Positions 8,849 to 15,907 of a stretch of DNA of 22,395 bases are shown here, piece by piece (the stretch's first letter is position 1; each line of letters begins with the position of its first letter). The translations under genes and the position numbers were made by a program. The stretch is from a virus. The DNA lies in the IMG/VR virus record IMGVR_UViG_3300034200_001186, positions 1-22,395 of that record, one strand, 5' to 3'. The notes beneath the pieces were generated by a model. That model was not told where the DNA came from and searched no databases. It saw only the letters and a program-made list of their open reading frames with translations.

Positions 8849-9238
8849 TCATTCTCGGTGGTTGTAATCAACGCACTTTTCCACGCATTCTCGTGGGTCT
8901 TTGTACTCTGGATGAATCACATGGATGAACCAGAAAGGAAGCTCCTGCTTCTTTCCATCAAGCGATACTTCCTTGATAGCTGCCTCGGTTCCGAGGTGGT
9001 AGAAGCCAGCACCGATGAAGTTGTGGATACGTGACTGAATCCAGTTCATCGCCTTGTCGCAGTCAATTGCCATATCCACTGGCACTTCCATTTTGATTGT
9101 CCACGACTGGCTCATCATGGTCTTCTCAGAGACTTCCTTGATGAGCTGGTGATTCATGACTTGCCTCGGATAGCCTTTTTTGAGCTGGCCTTCGAGGTGT
9201 AAGATGAGGTTCTTTCGTTCGAGCTTGTCGTGGTTCAT
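8849..9238 (-). CDS. Unknown protein in replication block
   Basis: This is a 129-residue protein of unknown function. It has an amphipathic N-terminus, a middle segment with a predicted strand (SWTIKMEVPVDM), a helix (DKAMNWIQSRIHNFIGAGFYHLGTEAA) and a Cys-containing C-terminus (RECVEKCVDYNH). The ATG overlaps the TAA of the upstream gene by one base (TAATG), so translation is likely coupled. Its place directly after the P-like gene suggests a replication role, but nothing in the sequence proves it. Confidence 0.7.
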   Translation of the reverse strand: MNHDKLERKNLILHLEGQLKKGYPRQVMNHQLIKEVSEKTMMSQSWTIKMEVPVDMAIDCDKAMNWIQSRIHNFIGAGFYHLGTEAAIKEVSLDGKKQELPFWFIHVIHPEYKDPRECVEKCVDYNHRE

Positions 9239-9849
9239 TACTTTGCCTTCAGCTTTGCAAGATTAGCTTTCGTCATTTCTTCTATTTTCCGAGCAATATC
9301 TGGATCTGGCACAAAAGCCTCCAAAGAAGGCCGTGACTGCGTTTCAGGTGCGAGCTTGAGTCTTTCATCGGTCGAGGCAGTCAAGGCGGCTTGCTGTTCG
9401 TTTTTGGCCGTCTTCAAGGCGTCTTCAGCCAAAGTCTTCAATTCAAACCGAAGGTCGGTCATGGCTCGTGGACTTTCAGAACGAACGTGCAAGTCATACC
9501 AACGTCCAGCCTTCATCAGCAGGCCATAGGCTTCTGGGTCTGCTTTGTAGGCTTGAGAGTCGCCACCGTTCTGTGGATAGCGAAGCAATGCGATTGCTCT
9601 GGCAGTCAGTTTCTCTGCCTCGGCTTTGTCAGATGAAGTGGCTTTCTGATTGAAGGCCAGAATCTCGTTCACCGAAGGCCAATGGTTGTCCAGGCTGTAG
9701 TGCTTGATGGCAGCCAAGATTTCACCTTCCGAGAGCTTTGGAAGCAACTCGGCAGCGTAGAACTCGATTTGACTAGATTTTAAGCTCTCTTTTTGTATCA
9801 ATTCTCGCCCATGCTGAAGCAAGTTCTCCATTACTTTGCTGAACTTCAT
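9238..9849 (-). CDS. Lambda P-like helicase loader candidate
   Basis: This is a 203-residue helical protein. Its first 70 residues show a pattern seen in phage helicase-loading or helicase-interacting proteins: a helix ending in ELLPKLSEGEILAAIKHYSLDNHWPSVNEILAF, similar to the proline-marked segments of such loaders. A charged helical remainder with a basic C-terminus (KANLAKLKAK) follows. There is no Walker motif, so it is not a DnaC-type ATPase. It directly follows the O-like initiator, matching the O-P order of lambdoid phages. ATG 9849 has AAGGA 8 bases upstream; a longer reading to 9882 is less likely. It overlaps the initiator's 3' end by 77 bases. Function is inference from pattern and position. 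Confidence 0.6.
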   Translation of the reverse strand: MKFSKVMENLLQHGRELIQKESLKSSQIEFYAAELLPKLSEGEILAAIKHYSLDNHWPSVNEILAFNQKATSSDKAEAEKLTARAIALLRYPQNGGDSQAYKADPEAYGLLMKAGRWYDLHVRSESPRAMTDLRFELKTLAEDALKTAKNEQQAALTASTDERLKLAPETQSRPSLEAFVPDPDIARKIEEMTKANLAKLKAK

Positions 9850-10756
9850 CTGCGGTTTCCTTTGCTGTCTGACGGTTTTCAATGTGTTTGATTTGCGAGC
9901 TGGTCATTGTGATTCCGGTATGGAAGCTGCGTCGGACTTCTGTGAGGTCACGAAAGCACCATTCCAAGCTGTGGCCTTTCTGGATGAACCACGCTTTGTT
10001 CATTTGAACGTAATGCTGCACGAGCGAGCATCCTTCATCGATTCCGACTTCCTCGTAAATCTTCTTTGCCCAACGATTGGCTTCTTTGCCTCTGGTCGGT
10101 TCAAAGCCGTACTTGTTGGAATAGGCCAAAGCATATGCCTCAAAGATGAGCGAACCGCCTGTTTGCTCTTTGGATGCAATGCGAACCTTGTCAACTGTTT
10201 TTTGACCTTCAAAGACCTCCACAGCGGATGCTGTGGGAACTGAGGAAAGAGAGCCGGAAAGAGAGACGGATCCTAACGATAGTAGGGTTCCGCCATTTTG
10301 GCAGGACTCACCGCCATTTTGGCGGAACTCACCGCCAGTTTGGCAGAACTGATTGTCAGTTGTTCCGCCATTTTGACTGGACTGAATCGCCTCATTTTGG
10401 CCGAGCTGAAAGTCATCGTCGTTGAGAATGCGTTCGATTTGCTTCTGAACTGGTCGGTAGTGATTGCCTGTTTTTTTATCAATTCTGATTTCAATAAGAC
10501 CGAGCTTTTCAAGACGCTCAAAAACTCTGAACAGCGTTCGCTCGGATAGCCACGGAAACTTGATAAGCCAATACTGCTGCTTGCCTTGCCACCAAGAAAT
10601 ATTGTCTGTTTGCTTCTTTGAACGGCAGAGTTCATACAATGTGCGAAGAACTATCGCCTCATTCAGGCCAATCTTTGCGGCGAGCTGATTATCAACTTTG
10701 CAATAATCGCTGGAAATCTTCCAATAATCTTTTGGATCGTCCTTGTACTTACTCAT
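9773..10756 (-). CDS. Phage replication initiator, O-like (winged-helix)
   Basis: This is probably the origin-binding protein of the phage. In 327 residues it has a winged-helix domain at about 10-110 (LNEAIVLRTLYELCRSKKQ; LSERTLFRVFERLEKLGLIEIR). A low-complexity stretch with repeated QNGG/QTGG (117-156) follows. The C-terminal domain (about 205-310) contains EAYALAYSNKYGFEPTRGKE and a Trp-rich helix region. The low-complexity stretch is encoded by tandem DNA repeats that look like iterons, as in the lambda O gene where the origin lies inside the initiator gene. ATG 10756 overlaps the upstream gene by 8 bases. Function is inferred from domain order, the iterons and the loader-like gene downstream. 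Confidence 0.72.
   Translation of the reverse strand: MSKYKDDPKDYWKISSDYCKVDNQLAAKIGLNEAIVLRTLYELCRSKKQTDNISWWQGKQQYWLIKFPWLSERTLFRVFERLEKLGLIEIRIDKKTGNHYRPVQKQIERILNDDDFQLGQNEAIQSSQNGGTTDNQFCQTGGEFRQNGGESCQNGGTLLSLGSVSLSGSLSSVPTASAVEVFEGQKTVDKVRIASKEQTGGSLIFEAYALAYSNKYGFEPTRGKEANRWAKKIYEEVGIDEGCSLVQHYVQMNKAWFIQKGHSLEWCFRDLTEVRRSFHTGITMTSSQIKHIENRQTAKETADEVQQSNGELASAWARIDTKRELKI
10290..10409. repeat. Iteron array, candidate replication origin
   Basis: Repeats with a 21-base unit built on CCGCC-ATTTT-GGCRG and ending in GRACTSA lie at 10290-10310, 10311-10331 and 10332-10352 (head to tail). A 12-base spacer and further copies follow at 10365-10385 and, degenerate, 10387-10409. Copy 2 is a perfect inverted repeat (CCGCCA-TTT-TGGCGG). 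They sit inside the initiator gene. An AT-rich stretch with a run of seven T lies about 55-90 bases away (10466-10498) and could be the unwinding element. This mirrors lambda ori within O; origin function is inference. Confidence 0.65.
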
Positions 10757-11117
10757 TGTAGAATCCCTTTAAAGTCATCGAACCGCCAACTTGATTGAGC
10801 AGCGTGAAGTTCAGCTTGAAACGAATCTCATCATCCATTTTGTGAGCCTGGAAGACGTCAGCTTTGAAAAGAAATTCCAAAGCATCGTGAATGCGGCGCT
10901 CTGGCCACCTGCAAGCAGCAAGCATGCTGTTGGCATTCCAGAGAAACCATTCTCCGGCGTTGGTGTGAATCTTATCGCCATAGGCATAAGCGCGAATCAT
11001 ATCGGAAAGAACGAACGTCGCGTCAGTTCCAAACTCACGGACGAAGTTTCTATTAAGAGTCCAGCAGCCAACGCCACCAGCTCCACGACAAAGCAATAAC
11101 GAGTCTTGAGGATTCAC
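10749..11117 (-). CDS. Winged-helix-like replication accessory protein
   Basis: This is a 122-residue protein of unknown precise role. Residues 20-105 look like a compact helix-turn-helix fold: LNRNFVREFGTDATFVLSDMIRAYAYGDK, then GEWFLWNANSMLAACRWPERRIHDALEFLFKADVFQAHKM. It starts at GTG 11117 with GGAGG 5 bases upstream and overlaps the initiator start by 8 bases, so the two are probably translated together. The similarity in layout to the initiator's own winged helix suggests it binds DNA or assists initiation. It could also be a repressor. Confidence 0.65.
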   Translation of the reverse strand: MNPQDSLLLCRGAGGVGCWTLNRNFVREFGTDATFVLSDMIRAYAYGDKIHTNAGEWFLWNANSMLAACRWPERRIHDALEFLFKADVFQAHKMDDEIRFKLNFTLLNQVGGSMTLKGFYNE

Positions 11118-11285: not shown

Positions 11286-12506
11286 TCATCTTGACGCAAT
11301 AGAGTTGAAGGTTTCTCCAGTTTCTTCCAGGTGCGCTTCTTTGCCTGTGTATTCCTGCCAGCGGCGGATTATCACTTCAATGTACTGAGGCGAGAGTTCC
11401 ATGCCGTAGCATTTGCGTCCGGTCTTTTCGCAGGCAATGAGTGTGGAGCCGGAGCCTAGAAACAAATCGAGGATTATTTTTACATCATGATTCGACAATG
11501 CTGTTTCACATAGCTTTGTTGGCTTTTCCATTGGATGTCTACCATCACGATCATTAGATGATCTGAAATCTGGCAGTTCCCAAACGGTTGTCTCTTTGTT
11601 TGAACCAATCCATTTTTGATTGCATCCTTTTTTAACGGCATAAAAGCATGGCTCGTGAACTTGGTTGTAGTATGTTTTTGAAAGAATCCACGGTTTCTTC
11701 CAAATTATTTGGCTTTTCAATTCATAGTCATATTTCGCTAATTGATTGATGAGATCGACAGAGTTGCAGCCAGCGTGCCAAATGTATGCAATTTCAGCTT
11801 GAACATTTCCAAGAAAGCTCGGAAATTTATCATCGTTTAATATTTTTTGATTTTTACCAGGAACGCCACCAACAAGTTTGCGCCATTCTCCGTCATAATT
11901 TACACCATATGGCGGATCTGTGAACAACATATCTGCCTTCACACCATTCATCAGCTTTGCCACCATTGCTTCGTCGGTGGAGTCACCACACATGATTTTA
12001 TGATTGCCAAGAATCCACACGTCACCAATCTTTGTCTTTGGCGGTGCTTGTTCATCGACTTCTGGAACGGCGTCTTCGTCAGTCAGTGGTTCCGATTTGT
12101 TTGGCATGATTTCGGAAACCATCGCCTCGTCAAAGCCAGTCAAGCTGGTATCGAAGCCAAGGTCTTTGAGTTCAGCAAACTCCAGAGCCAACAGTTCATT
12201 ATCCCACTCAGCGAGTTCAGCCATGCGATTCACCGAGATTCTGAACGCTTTGATTTGTGCATCTGACAGGTCATCAGCCAGGACGACCGGAACTTCCTTG
12301 AGGCCAAGTTTTTGTGCAGCCTTCAAACGCAAGTGACCATCGACAAGCAAACCATCGGACTTGGCGACAATCGGCACTCGAAAGCCGAACTCCTTGATGG
12401 CAGCAGCGACTTGTTCAACAGCTTGGTCATTCTTGCGTGGATTCCTGGCATAAGGAATCAGCTTGTCGATTGGCCAGTTCTCAACTTTCAGCTTCTTGCT
12501 GGTCAT
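11286..12506 (-). CDS. ParB-like domain fused to DNA methyltransferase
   Basis: This is a two-domain phage protein of 406 residues. Residues 8-100 are a ParB/sulfiredoxin-type domain (IDKLIPYARNPRKND; VDGHLRLKAAQKLG). Residues 155-395 are an N6-adenine/N4-cytosine methyltransferase with DPPY at 197-200 before DLFLGSGST at 347-355. ParB-methylase fusions are known from phages and mobile elements; the usual view is an orphan enzyme that methylates phage or host DNA. ATG 12506 has AAGGAG 5 bases upstream; an earlier ATG at 12527 is poorer. The region between DPPY and the cofactor motif has clearly lower GC than the rest of the gene, pointing to exchange of the target-recognition part. Confidence 0.9.
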   Translation of the reverse strand: MTSKKLKVENWPIDKLIPYARNPRKNDQAVEQVAAAIKEFGFRVPIVAKSDGLLVDGHLRLKAAQKLGLKEVPVVLADDLSDAQIKAFRISVNRMAELAEWDNELLALEFAELKDLGFDTSLTGFDEAMVSEIMPNKSEPLTDEDAVPEVDEQAPPKTKIGDVWILGNHKIMCGDSTDEAMVAKLMNGVKADMLFTDPPYGVNYDGEWRKLVGGVPGKNQKILNDDKFPSFLGNVQAEIAYIWHAGCNSVDLINQLAKYDYELKSQIIWKKPWILSKTYYNQVHEPCFYAVKKGCNQKWIGSNKETTVWELPDFRSSNDRDGRHPMEKPTKLCETALSNHDVKIILDLFLGSGSTLIACEKTGRKCYGMELSPQYIEVIIRRWQEYTGKEAHLEETGETFNSIASR

Positions 12507-12567
12507 ATGAACTCCTTGATGAATCATTGTTCAACAAGGACTAGCACAAGAAGGAAAGGCTGACCAA

Positions 12568-13640: not shown

Positions 13641-13877
13641 ATGTACAAGTACGATATTATCACCTTAGACAATGCTGCTGGATTCTACACAGTTGCTCAG
13701 TTGACGCAGGATGTTCTGCTCAAGACGCTCGCAGCACTTCCACCAGATGACTACAAGACAGAAAGCGAAGTGCTCTTCCACCTTCGCCAGAACAAGATGC
13801 TTCTCGCGCACTGCAAACAACTCATGTCGGAAGAAAAGGTCACGAGCCTCAAGGCGGTGAAGAATGAACACCACTGA
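13641..13877 (+). CDS. Unknown protein, first gene of early operon
   Basis: This is a 78-residue, soluble helical protein of unknown function that opens the rightward recombination operon. ATG 13641 has the recurrent GGAGGCAC site ending two bases upstream of it, giving strong initiation. The 3' end overlaps the exonuclease gene by 14 bases. It may be a partner or inhibitor of host recombination, as small proteins at this position sometimes are (for example lambda Gam). It has no visible similarity to Gam, so this is speculation. Confidence 0.75.
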   Translation: MYKYDIITLDNAAGFYTVAQLTQDVLLKTLAALPPDDYKTESEVLFHLRQNKMLLAHCKQLMSEEKVTSLKAVKNEHH

Positions 13878-14625
13878 ATACCGCCAGCATCAGGCACTTT
13901 CGTATAGCAAGCTGAAAGCCTATCTCAAAAGCCCGTTGCATGGCCTCACTCAGCAACCATTGACCGAGAGCGCAGCAATGCGCTTCGGTTCGGCTGTTGA
14001 CCTGGCACTCAAAGGCGAACTGCAAGACGTCATCGTCAATCCGTTTGAAGACGGTCGCACCAAGGCGGCAAAGGACTTCAAGGTAGAGAACGCTGGCAAG
14101 CTCATTCTCACGCAAGCTGAGATGGACAAAGTTTTGCATTGCGTTGCTTCAGTGAAGTCGCATCCAGCCGTGAAGGCGTTGAACCTGGAAATGCTCGATT
14201 CTGACAAGCCGATGTTCGGTGAGATTGAAGGCATCGCCATGAAAGGCTTGCCTGACTGGTCGTTTGGCGGAACGCTCATCGACCTCAAGACCACGAGTTA
14301 CGAGGTCAGTGCTTCAGAGTTTGCAAAGGCTGTGAACCATTTCCACTATGACCTCCAGGCTGCCGTCTATTGCGAACTGGCTAAGCAAGCAGGCGAAAGC
14401 AATCCGTCGTTCTTCTGGATTGTCGTTGAGTCAGACCATCCGTTCGACGTGGCTGTTTACAAGGCCACAGAGCGCATCATGGCTGTCGGTCAAGCAAAGC
14501 TGAAGCTCGCGCTTTCAAACGTCAGGAAGGCCCAGATTGGCGAGTTCCTTGGCACGTCTGAGTTCGTGCAAGAGCTTGATATGCCGCCTTGGTATGGAAA
14601 AGCCTTTCAACTGGACGGCTTTTGA
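13864..14625 (+). CDS. PD-(D/E)XK exonuclease, RecE/YqaJ-like
   Basis: This is a 253-residue nuclease that probably degrades one strand at double-strand ends to make 3' tails for the annealase encoded next. Candidate active-site residues are E120, D131 (KGLPDW), D140 and K142 (LIDLKTT), followed by Q165-x3-Y169 (LQAAVY), as in RecE C-terminal and Cas4-like nucleases. An N-terminal SYSKLKAYLKSP and a GSAVDLAL helix match the usual start of such proteins, with Asp in place of the more common His. ATG 13864 overlaps the preceding gene. The RecE-RecT order is typical of phage recombination cassettes. Confidence 0.85.
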   Translation: MNTTEYRQHQALSYSKLKAYLKSPLHGLTQQPLTESAAMRFGSAVDLALKGELQDVIVNPFEDGRTKAAKDFKVENAGKLILTQAEMDKVLHCVASVKSHPAVKALNLEMLDSDKPMFGEIEGIAMKGLPDWSFGGTLIDLKTTSYEVSASEFAKAVNHFHYDLQAAVYCELAKQAGESNPSFFWIVVESDHPFDVAVYKATERIMAVGQAKLKLALSNVRKAQIGEFLGTSEFVQELDMPPWYGKAFQLDGF

Positions 14626-14670
14626 AGTAAAGCCATCAGTCTAACAATTTCATATCAATAGGAGGCACCT

Positions 14671-15453
14671 ATGACGCAACTTGTGACACGCGAACTCAAC
14701 GCTCAAGACGTTGACCTTATCAAAAAGAACATCGCCAAAGATGCCAGCGACAATGAGCTGAAGCTCTTCCTTCAGATTTGCAATCGCACTGGCCTTGATC
14801 CATTTGCTCGACAAATCTTCTTTGTGAAGCGCGGAGGCGTTGGTCAAACAACGCTTTCGATTGATGGCTTTCGCTTGGTGGCTGAACGCACTGGTCGATA
14901 CGAAGGTCAGATTGGCCCATTCTGGTGCGGTGAAGATGGCGAATGGAAAGATGTTTGGCTGAAGAATGAACCGCCTCTTGCAGCCAAGGTCGGTGTCTTT
15001 CGCTCCGGATTTCGTGAACCGCTTTACGCCGTGGCGAACTTCTCGGCTTACAACGCAGGAAGTCCAATCTGGAAAAAAATGCCTTCGCTAATGTTGGCAA
15101 AGTGTGCAGAGAGTTTGGCCTTGAGGCGAGCGTTTCCGATGGAACTTTCTGGCTTGTATACCACCGACGAAATGGAACAAGCCGAAGCGCCAATGCAGAA
15201 CGTCACGCCTCAACCAACGGCACAGCCAGCACCGAAGATTGCCATTGGCCCTGCAACTGAGAATCCAATCGTCAAAGCATTCTTCTCCGTCAACGTCACG
15301 CAGCGCGACCTTGAGACAGCTCTCGGAAAGCCTGCTGCTGATTGGAATGACGAAGACACCAAGTCACTGCGCGATTGCTACCAGGCAATCAAAGGCGGAG
15401 CGAAGCCTGCTGATGCGTTGAATAAGCTGGTCAGAGATGCGGTGTTCTCATGA
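14671..15453 (+). CDS. bet: Single-strand annealing protein, Bet/RecT family
   Basis: This 260-residue recombinase pairs complementary single strands made by the exonuclease. The core, about residues 10-170, has the Bet pattern: [54 protein letters not shown], and [23 protein letters not shown] Pro/Gln-rich linker (180-210) leads to a C-terminal helical domain that may bind SSB or the nuclease. ATG 14671 has GGAGGCAC upstream. It overlaps the following membrane peptide by ATGA. Identification is based on strong family pattern and operon partners. Confidence 0.92.
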
Positions 15454-15563
15454 ATCAAGAATGGATAAATCTCGCTCTGGTCATCATTGGCATTGGCGTA
15501 TTCAGCGCCATTCTTGGAAGTCTGACTGCACTTTTGGATAAGTATGAAAGGAAACGCAAATGA
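15450..15563 (+). CDS. 37-residue membrane peptide
   Basis: This short frame ([16 protein letters not shown]...KYERKRK) is linked by ATGA to the annealase stop upstream and by ATGA to the SSB start downstream, which supports real translation. It has one hydrophobic membrane segment at about residues 5-28 and a basic tail, giving an expected cytoplasmic C-terminus. Function is unknown. Being inside a recombination operon it might tether or modulate something at the membrane, but that is speculation. Confidence 0.6.
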
Positions 15564-15907
15564 TTAACAAGCTCACTCTTATTGGTCGCGCTGGAAAAGA
15601 TGCTCGCGTTGGCGTCACTCAAAAAGGAACTCACTATGCTTCCGTCTCGCTGGCGTCCGGCTCGAAGGAGAACACTGTTTGGTTCGATGTGGTGGCTTAT
15701 GACAAACAAGCTGAATGGCTTGCTAAGGCGACTAAAGGAGCGATGGTTTACGTCGAAGGCCCAGTATCAATCAATTCATACCAGGGTAAAGACGGAACTC
15801 AGAAATCATCATTGCAAGTCACCGCCTACCAGGTACGACTTTTGTCTGGGAATCAAGCTCAGCAAGAAACTCCAGCATTTGATGAAGTCGATGATGTTCC
15901 TTTTTGA
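15560..15907 (+). CDS. ssb: Single-stranded DNA-binding protein
   Basis: This 115-residue OB-fold protein coats single-stranded DNA during replication and recombination. It begins with the typical [17 protein letters not shown], has strands WFDVVAYDKQAEW and GAMVYVEGPVSINSYQGKDGTQ, and ends in a short acidic tip (DEVDDVPF) used by SSB proteins to contact partners. It is shorter than the bacterial protein (about 178 residues) because the flexible linker is almost absent. AAGGA lies about 7 bases upstream of ATG 15560, and translation is coupled to the membrane peptide before it. Confidence 0.92.
   Translation: MINKLTLIGRAGKDARVGVTQKGTHYASVSLASGSKENTVWFDVVAYDKQAEWLAKATKGAMVYVEGPVSINSYQGKDGTQKSSLQVTAYQVRLLSGNQAQQETPAFDEVDDVPF

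Follow-up and report, generated by a model that had tools for sequence, protein, structure and literature searches.

To our knowledge, no origin has been assigned for most phages that are known from sequence alone. The question raised by the locus described here is whether an array of inverted repeats lying inside a phage replication initiator gene marks the origin of that phage. The stretch of DNA analyzed, referred to below as the window, comprises the whole 22,395 nucleotides (positions 1 to 22,395) of IMG/VR virus record IMGVR_UViG_3300034200_001186. An earlier reading of its letters, made without database searches and referred to as the sequence-only reading, had proposed a candidate origin at these repeats. 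The gene that contains them and its parts are as follows.

9773-10756, minus strand: replication initiator gene, 327 aa, with an N-terminal winged helix, a linker, and a helical C-terminal domain
10421-10711, minus strand: winged-helix (wHTH) domain, residues 16-112, from the AlphaFold model and the family alignment
10526-10546, minus strand: start of the recognition helix, S71-E72-R73-T74-L75-F76-R77, with x2 = E, x3 = R, and x6 = F in the notation given below
9779-10159, minus strand: C-terminal domain, residues 200-326, 87% shared with the relative L618

When the protein was searched with hmmscan, its matches to phage initiator profiles were weak but consistent, i.e., PHROG 6493 (DnaD-like helicase loader; 9e-8) and the replication-initiation PHROGs 428 (1.5e-6) and 11233 (3.4e-6). 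Searches of Pfam and NCBIfam gave no match, and the DnaB_2 (DnaD) C-terminal domain of Pfam, which 15 of 68 family members match, is absent from the window initiator. An AlphaFold model built on a 62-sequence alignment predicted the wHTH at residues 16-112 (pLDDT of about 90) with its recognition helix at residues 72-84, a disordered linker at residues 121-181 (pLDDT below 50) that contains most of the stretch encoded by the array, and a helical C terminus at residues 200-326. The window wHTH carries the family signature GLNEAI ... FP.[WL]S..T..R, as seen by hmmscan, alignment, and the model, and the family alignment has invariant G-N-E, W, F-P, R, and Y. Solved structures searched by sequence gave no significant match; Foldseek found only generic winged-helix matches among solved structures (best E = 0.045), and its best match among predicted viral proteins was an initiator-like Klebsiella protein (5e-11). 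By hhalign, the open reading frame at 10749-11117, upstream of the initiator, is unrelated to the family profile.

Five 15-bp dyads occupy 10290-10403 on the minus (gene) strand, with start-to-start spacings of 21, 21, 33, and 24 nt.

10290-10304, minus strand: iteron copy CTGCCAAAATGGCGG, from the weight matrix and repeat analysis
10311-10325, minus strand: iteron copy CCGCCAAAATGGCGG, with perfect arms
10332-10346, minus strand: iteron copy CTGCCAAACTGGCGG
10365-10379, minus strand: iteron copy CAGTCAAAATGGCGG
10389-10403, minus strand: iteron copy CGGCCAAAATGAGGC, the most degenerate of the five

The array lies 350-465 nt into the initiator gene, in its linker-coding part, and all five copies share one reading frame. 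A weight matrix built from the five dyads scored them at 18-24, and a scan with it found no sixth copy elsewhere in the window, the best non-self site scoring 10.6. TRF called 10290-10350 with a period of 21, 2.9 copies, and 90% matches. The sequence-only reading had described three repeats with an exact period of 21 and two spaced copies; TRF and the weight matrix bear out both the period and the spaced copies, but the copies are not identical, and perfect arms occur in 10311-10325 alone. The array strand also folds better than its own shuffles (z = -3.9), an excess expected from dyads within one array.

An array of this kind might reflect protein coding only, with the QNGG linker being a flexible protein repeat whose DNA is incidentally repetitive; the single frame of the five window copies at the spacings above and the predicted disorder of the linker fit such an account. 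We compared the array with a null model in which the protein was held fixed and codons were redrawn synonymously from the codon usage of the window. Five CAAANTG cores had a P of 3.5e-4 under this null, the observed arm complementarity was reached in 0 of 20,000 draws, and the mean pairwise repeat identity of 0.72 (null, 0.59 ± 0.025) was reached in 0 of 5,000. Both the palindromy of the dyads and the identity of the repeats exceed what coding for the protein requires. In the next gene, moreover, QNGG is encoded at 9562-9573 as CAG-AAC-GGT-GGC, which is not the iteron word, so the peptide does not force that word. As the DNA core occurs in every reading frame among relatives (see below), we consider a mere coding repeat very improbable; the codon null and the multiframe conservation rule it out, unless the array in the window has lost its function.

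The relatives of the window phage indicate with which part of the protein the repeats are inherited. L001 is the same phage as the window, and L002 is a different phage with structural genes about 75-79% identical to those of the window in DNA. Window and L002 share the following segment.

10240-10756, minus strand: exchanged module of wHTH, iterons, and 12-nt repeats, with 96.7% DNA identity to L002

This homology runs from the start codon to just beyond the 12-nt repeats and then stops abruptly; past this point the L002 initiator gene is unalignable to the window as DNA, with 34% identity between the two C-terminal domains. A search with the gene downstream of the initiator retrieved L618 to L622. 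L618 has the C-terminal domain (87%) and downstream genes of the window but an unrelated wHTH, and its array slot holds three CTAGTGCAACCATTGCA dyads spaced 23 and 22 nt apart. In L619 and its near-copy L621, another wHTH is paired with a C-terminal domain 98% identical to that of L002, and the slot is occupied by three GGATCTCAGATCC dyads, again with spacings of 23 and 22 nt; L620 and L622 have further wHTHs with less regular repeats. As judged by these alignments, the iterons travel with the wHTH, and never with the C-terminal domain, among the window, L002, and L618 to L622, and the C-terminal domain of the window was inherited independently of them. The sequence-only reading had asked whether relatives keep the QNGG peptide while losing the DNA repeats; L002 retains both peptide and repeats, and L618 to L622, without this wHTH, have neither.

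A gene at 11286-12527 on the minus strand encodes a ParB_N domain fused to an N6/N4 DNA methyltransferase. As this protein is encoded 530 bp away and the dyads resemble centromere sites in form, the array could be a parS-like partition site for it. However, arrays track the wHTH helix and not the ParB gene, and L621 and L618 have a close ParB_N homologue, with the methyltransferase in L621, but not these dyads. These two domain-swap relatives rule out a ParB centromere, and we hold a partition role to be extremely unlikely.

Family members were collected by tblastn and profile scans, yielding 301 distinct genes with this wHTH. At least two CAAANTG-core dyads follow the wHTH in 180 of them, mainly at spacings of 21-24 or 42-50 nt, and the window array has this pattern, with CAAANTG-core dyads just after the wHTH and about 21-24 bp apart. 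Initiators with CAAANTG dyads in the same slot come from both Gammaproteobacteria and Firmicutes. More than one reading frame is used by 156 of the 180 arrays (core frame counts of 290, 197, and 174); since the cores occur in all three frames across relatives, it is the DNA that is conserved and not the peptide. In the other 121 genes, this strict core gave no array with at least two exact CAAANTG matches; some relatives have variant cores, CAAAACG for example, or different dyads, and others may lack an array altogether.

We then compared the recognition helix, written S-x2-x3-T-phi-x6-R, with the half-site, written p4p3p2p1-CA, in 69 nonredundant arrays by taking the closest independent pairs. 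Base p4 differed in 26 of 28 pairs with a change at x6 compared to 8 of 33 without one (p = 3.4e-8), and p1 differed in 17 of 28 pairs with a change at x3 compared to 6 of 31 without one (p = 0.0013, or about 0.02 once corrected for 16 tests). In this test, arm bases did not follow changes at the buried position phi5. Distant pairs agreed in sign: p1 was shared in 85% when x3 was shared versus 32%, and p2 in 79% when x2 was shared versus 26%. At x3, residues S, A, and P go with p1 = T, N with C, D with G, and K or R mostly with A or C; at x6, K goes with p4 = G or A, R and I with T, and F with C, as in the window. Examples of helix and half-site are S-K-N-T-I-I-R with TACCCA, S-E-S-T-L-K-R with GGGTCA or AGGTCA, S-N-V-T-I-R-R with TGCTCA, and S-S-D-T-V-K-R with AGTGCA. 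The window combination of x6 = F and CCGC arms was found only in the window phage (including L001) and L002 of the sampled set. With half-sites collected on a fixed core, a sample biased to cultured hosts, and a pair test that is not a full phylogenetic model, the data support that recognition-helix residues and iteron arm bases change together across the family. The open-access papers searched, in which older literature is thinly covered, held no description of a helix-iteron code for this family; this covariation is more novel than the locus itself, which is of a known kind.

Among lambdoid phages, a type-specific pairing of O with ori has long been recognized. The iterons of lambda lie at O nt 349-433; like those of the window, they are imperfect inverted repeats, 20-24 bp apart, in the linker-coding slot of the initiator gene. 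Lambda copies 1 and 3 read ATCCCTCAAAACGAGGGA and ATCCCTCAAATTGGGGGA, and their cores, CAAAACG and CAAATTG, are close to the CAAANTG core of the window family. L009, an E. coli relative, joins a window-type wHTH and CAAANTG iterons to the C-terminal domain of lambda O (34% over 148 aa, E = 3e-28). The slot, the form, and, in L009, the partner domain thus match ori-lambda, although the window protein is unlike O; the lambda-like design and the dissimilar initiator had both been part of the sequence-only reading, and by BLASTP the window protein has no significant match to lambda O (best E = 4.5). The window also differs from lambda in its arms and in having its AT-rich tract on the opposite side of the array. 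Compared to the initiators of PHROG 6493 and 428 (mEp460-like O and staphylococcal and Bacillus DnaD-like proteins), the window is alike in wHTH family, slot, and dyad core, but its CCGCCA arms are matched by L002 alone, its C terminus is not of the DnaB_2, Phg_2220_C, or O type, and its copies are all in one frame.

As proposed for the window, origin repeats lie within the replisome organizer gene in SPP1, Tuc2009, TP901-1, and 80alpha. In-gene repeats are established origins in TP901-1 (ORF13) and Tuc2009 (Rep2009) (PMC8965321) and in SPP1 (G38P/oriL) (PMC6316719), and for 80alpha ORF20 the origin in the initiator gene was established by failure to complement (PMC5499656). By BLASTP, the initiators of TP901-1, Tuc2009, and 80alpha show no resemblance to the window protein; none of the three has an array of CAAANTG dyads, and by sequence they belong to other lineages.

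Co-inheritance with the wHTH and covariation with its helix would also follow if the array were an operator through which the initiator mainly represses or road-blocks its own transcription, with the origin elsewhere; wHTH binding is equally supported under this account, and a stand-alone paralogue in L002 could regulate such sites. Yet the sites are 350-465 nt inside the gene, not at a promoter, and in a similar place in relatives, their slot is that of ori-lambda, and in-gene repeats are proven origins in other phages (PMC8965321, PMC6316719). We regard an operator with a separate origin as unlikely; autoregulation alongside origin function is possible. The stand-alone protein of L002 (L002:923-1285) is a wHTH without a C-terminal domain, encoded directly upstream of and overlapping the initiator gene and 37% identical to the initiator wHTH (E = 1e-23); it may compete with the initiator for the iterons or have a regulatory role there.

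Altogether, the comparative evidence from L002, L618 to L622, and the family arrays supports the candidate origin inside the initiator gene. The sequences show that the array exists, that it goes beyond what coding requires, that it is inherited together with the wHTH, and that iteron arms covary with the recognition helix in the family; the domain swaps and the covariation both point to the wHTH as the part of the protein that reads the dyads. On these grounds it is highly probable that the repeats form the iteron block of a phage replication origin inside the gene of its own O-type initiator, an analogue of ori-lambda, and that they are the sites bound by this protein. As the 22.4-kb record may be a fragment, a second origin beyond it is possible.

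Two elements flank the iterons.

10458-10497, no strand assigned: AT-rich 40-mer, 75% AT, on the gene-5' side of the iterons, at the 99.9th percentile of window 40-mers
10244-10270, minus strand: 12-nt tandem repeat of the GGCTCTCTTTCC type, 2.2 copies, on the gene-3' side of the iterons, called by TRF

The AT-rich tract that had been noted near the iterons exists, but it sits on the gene-5' side, where it codes for the wing, opposite to that of lambda; no such tract lies on the gene-3' side, about 10181-10285 being only 50% AT. It is possibly an unwinding region or merely the coding of the wing. L002 has the GGCTCTCTTTCC repeats as well, conserved as far as its homologous segment extends. About half of the nonredundant family genes, including L137, L213, and L297, carry 12-nt ACAGAGACTACT repeats directly downstream of the iterons, with ACA-GAG codons fixed. 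The Glu codon is GAG at 87 of 95 positions (92%) in these repeats versus 531 of 1369 (39%) elsewhere in the same genes, and in 33 of 34 genes the GAG share is higher within the repeats than in the remaining sequence, which argues that the DNA itself is under constraint. The GGCTCTCTTTCC repeats of the window are a candidate counterpart of these, and we would guess that the 12-nt repeats serve as a DNA-opening site. Cumulative GC skew, which the sequence-only reading had put forward as a check, did not place the origin at 10.3 kb; its minimum, at about 13.5-14.5 kb, coincides with a strand switch of the flanking genes, and the skew tracks gene strand and is uninformative. By the pattern used, no DnaA box was found. 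Adjacent genes for a DUF3799 exonuclease (PHROG exonuclease VIII), RecT, and SSB occupy 13864-15907 on the plus strand; this block diverges from the initiator operon, and the skew minimum falls at the junction.

In the model that we infer for binding, dimerization, DNA opening, origin function, and helicase loading, the initiator wHTH would bind each C-AAA-N-T-G palindrome through its recognition helix, probably as one dimer per dyad, with the arm bases chosen by x2, x3, and x6. The bound copies, about two helical turns apart, would assemble into a complex resembling the O-some and promote the opening of neighboring DNA. The helicase or a helicase loader would be recruited by the C-terminal domain, which is variable. 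One neighboring gene may be relevant to this last step.

9238-9849, minus strand: gene P0002, 203 aa, overlapping the 3' end of the initiator gene, predicted to be all helical

P0002 accompanies replication genes in related phages, and its place next to the initiator gene is the one that the P-type helicase loader has in lambda. It had no profile match, and its structure model is of low confidence, so a helicase-loader role, suggested by position, is conjecture.

For the family as a whole, we lean toward the proposal that the wHTH module has been swapped between phages of Gammaproteobacteria and Firmicutes together with its iterons, in front of unrelated helicase-recruiting domains, that helix and iteron are related by an amino acid-base code, and that the 12-nt ACAGAGACTACT repeats may open the DNA. 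If this is true, the code would allow origins to be located and replication incompatibility to be predicted from sequence. The present case indicates that an origin can be read from the initiator gene itself and that wHTH and iterons change hands together, like a cassette. A phage with its own wHTH-iteron pair would neither titrate its relatives nor be titrated by them, and avoidance of such titration may be why neighboring phages have mutually different iterons. The locus is valuable for having pointed to a specificity rule that can be tested, and the covariation raises the testable question of whether three helix residues predict the origin specificity of a phage initiator.

Two further repeat families were noted. 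In L618 (L618:2512-2554), L619, L620, and L622, near relatives of the window phage with other wHTH domains, the iteron region is followed by three GAACTAGATTCC-type repeats at distances of 14-15 nt. When the collection was scanned for GCCAAAATGGC pairs, most matches belonged to an unrelated element with a spacing of 29 bp, and only those in L017, L023, L053, and L002 were recognized as initiator genes. This dispersed element consists of two CTGCCAAAATGGCAG dyads at 29-bp spacing with a GC-rich middle (L019:8943-8983, L026, L029, L036, and others) and is present in many copies per contig, at intervals of roughly 0.7-1.5 kb, in several virus contigs.
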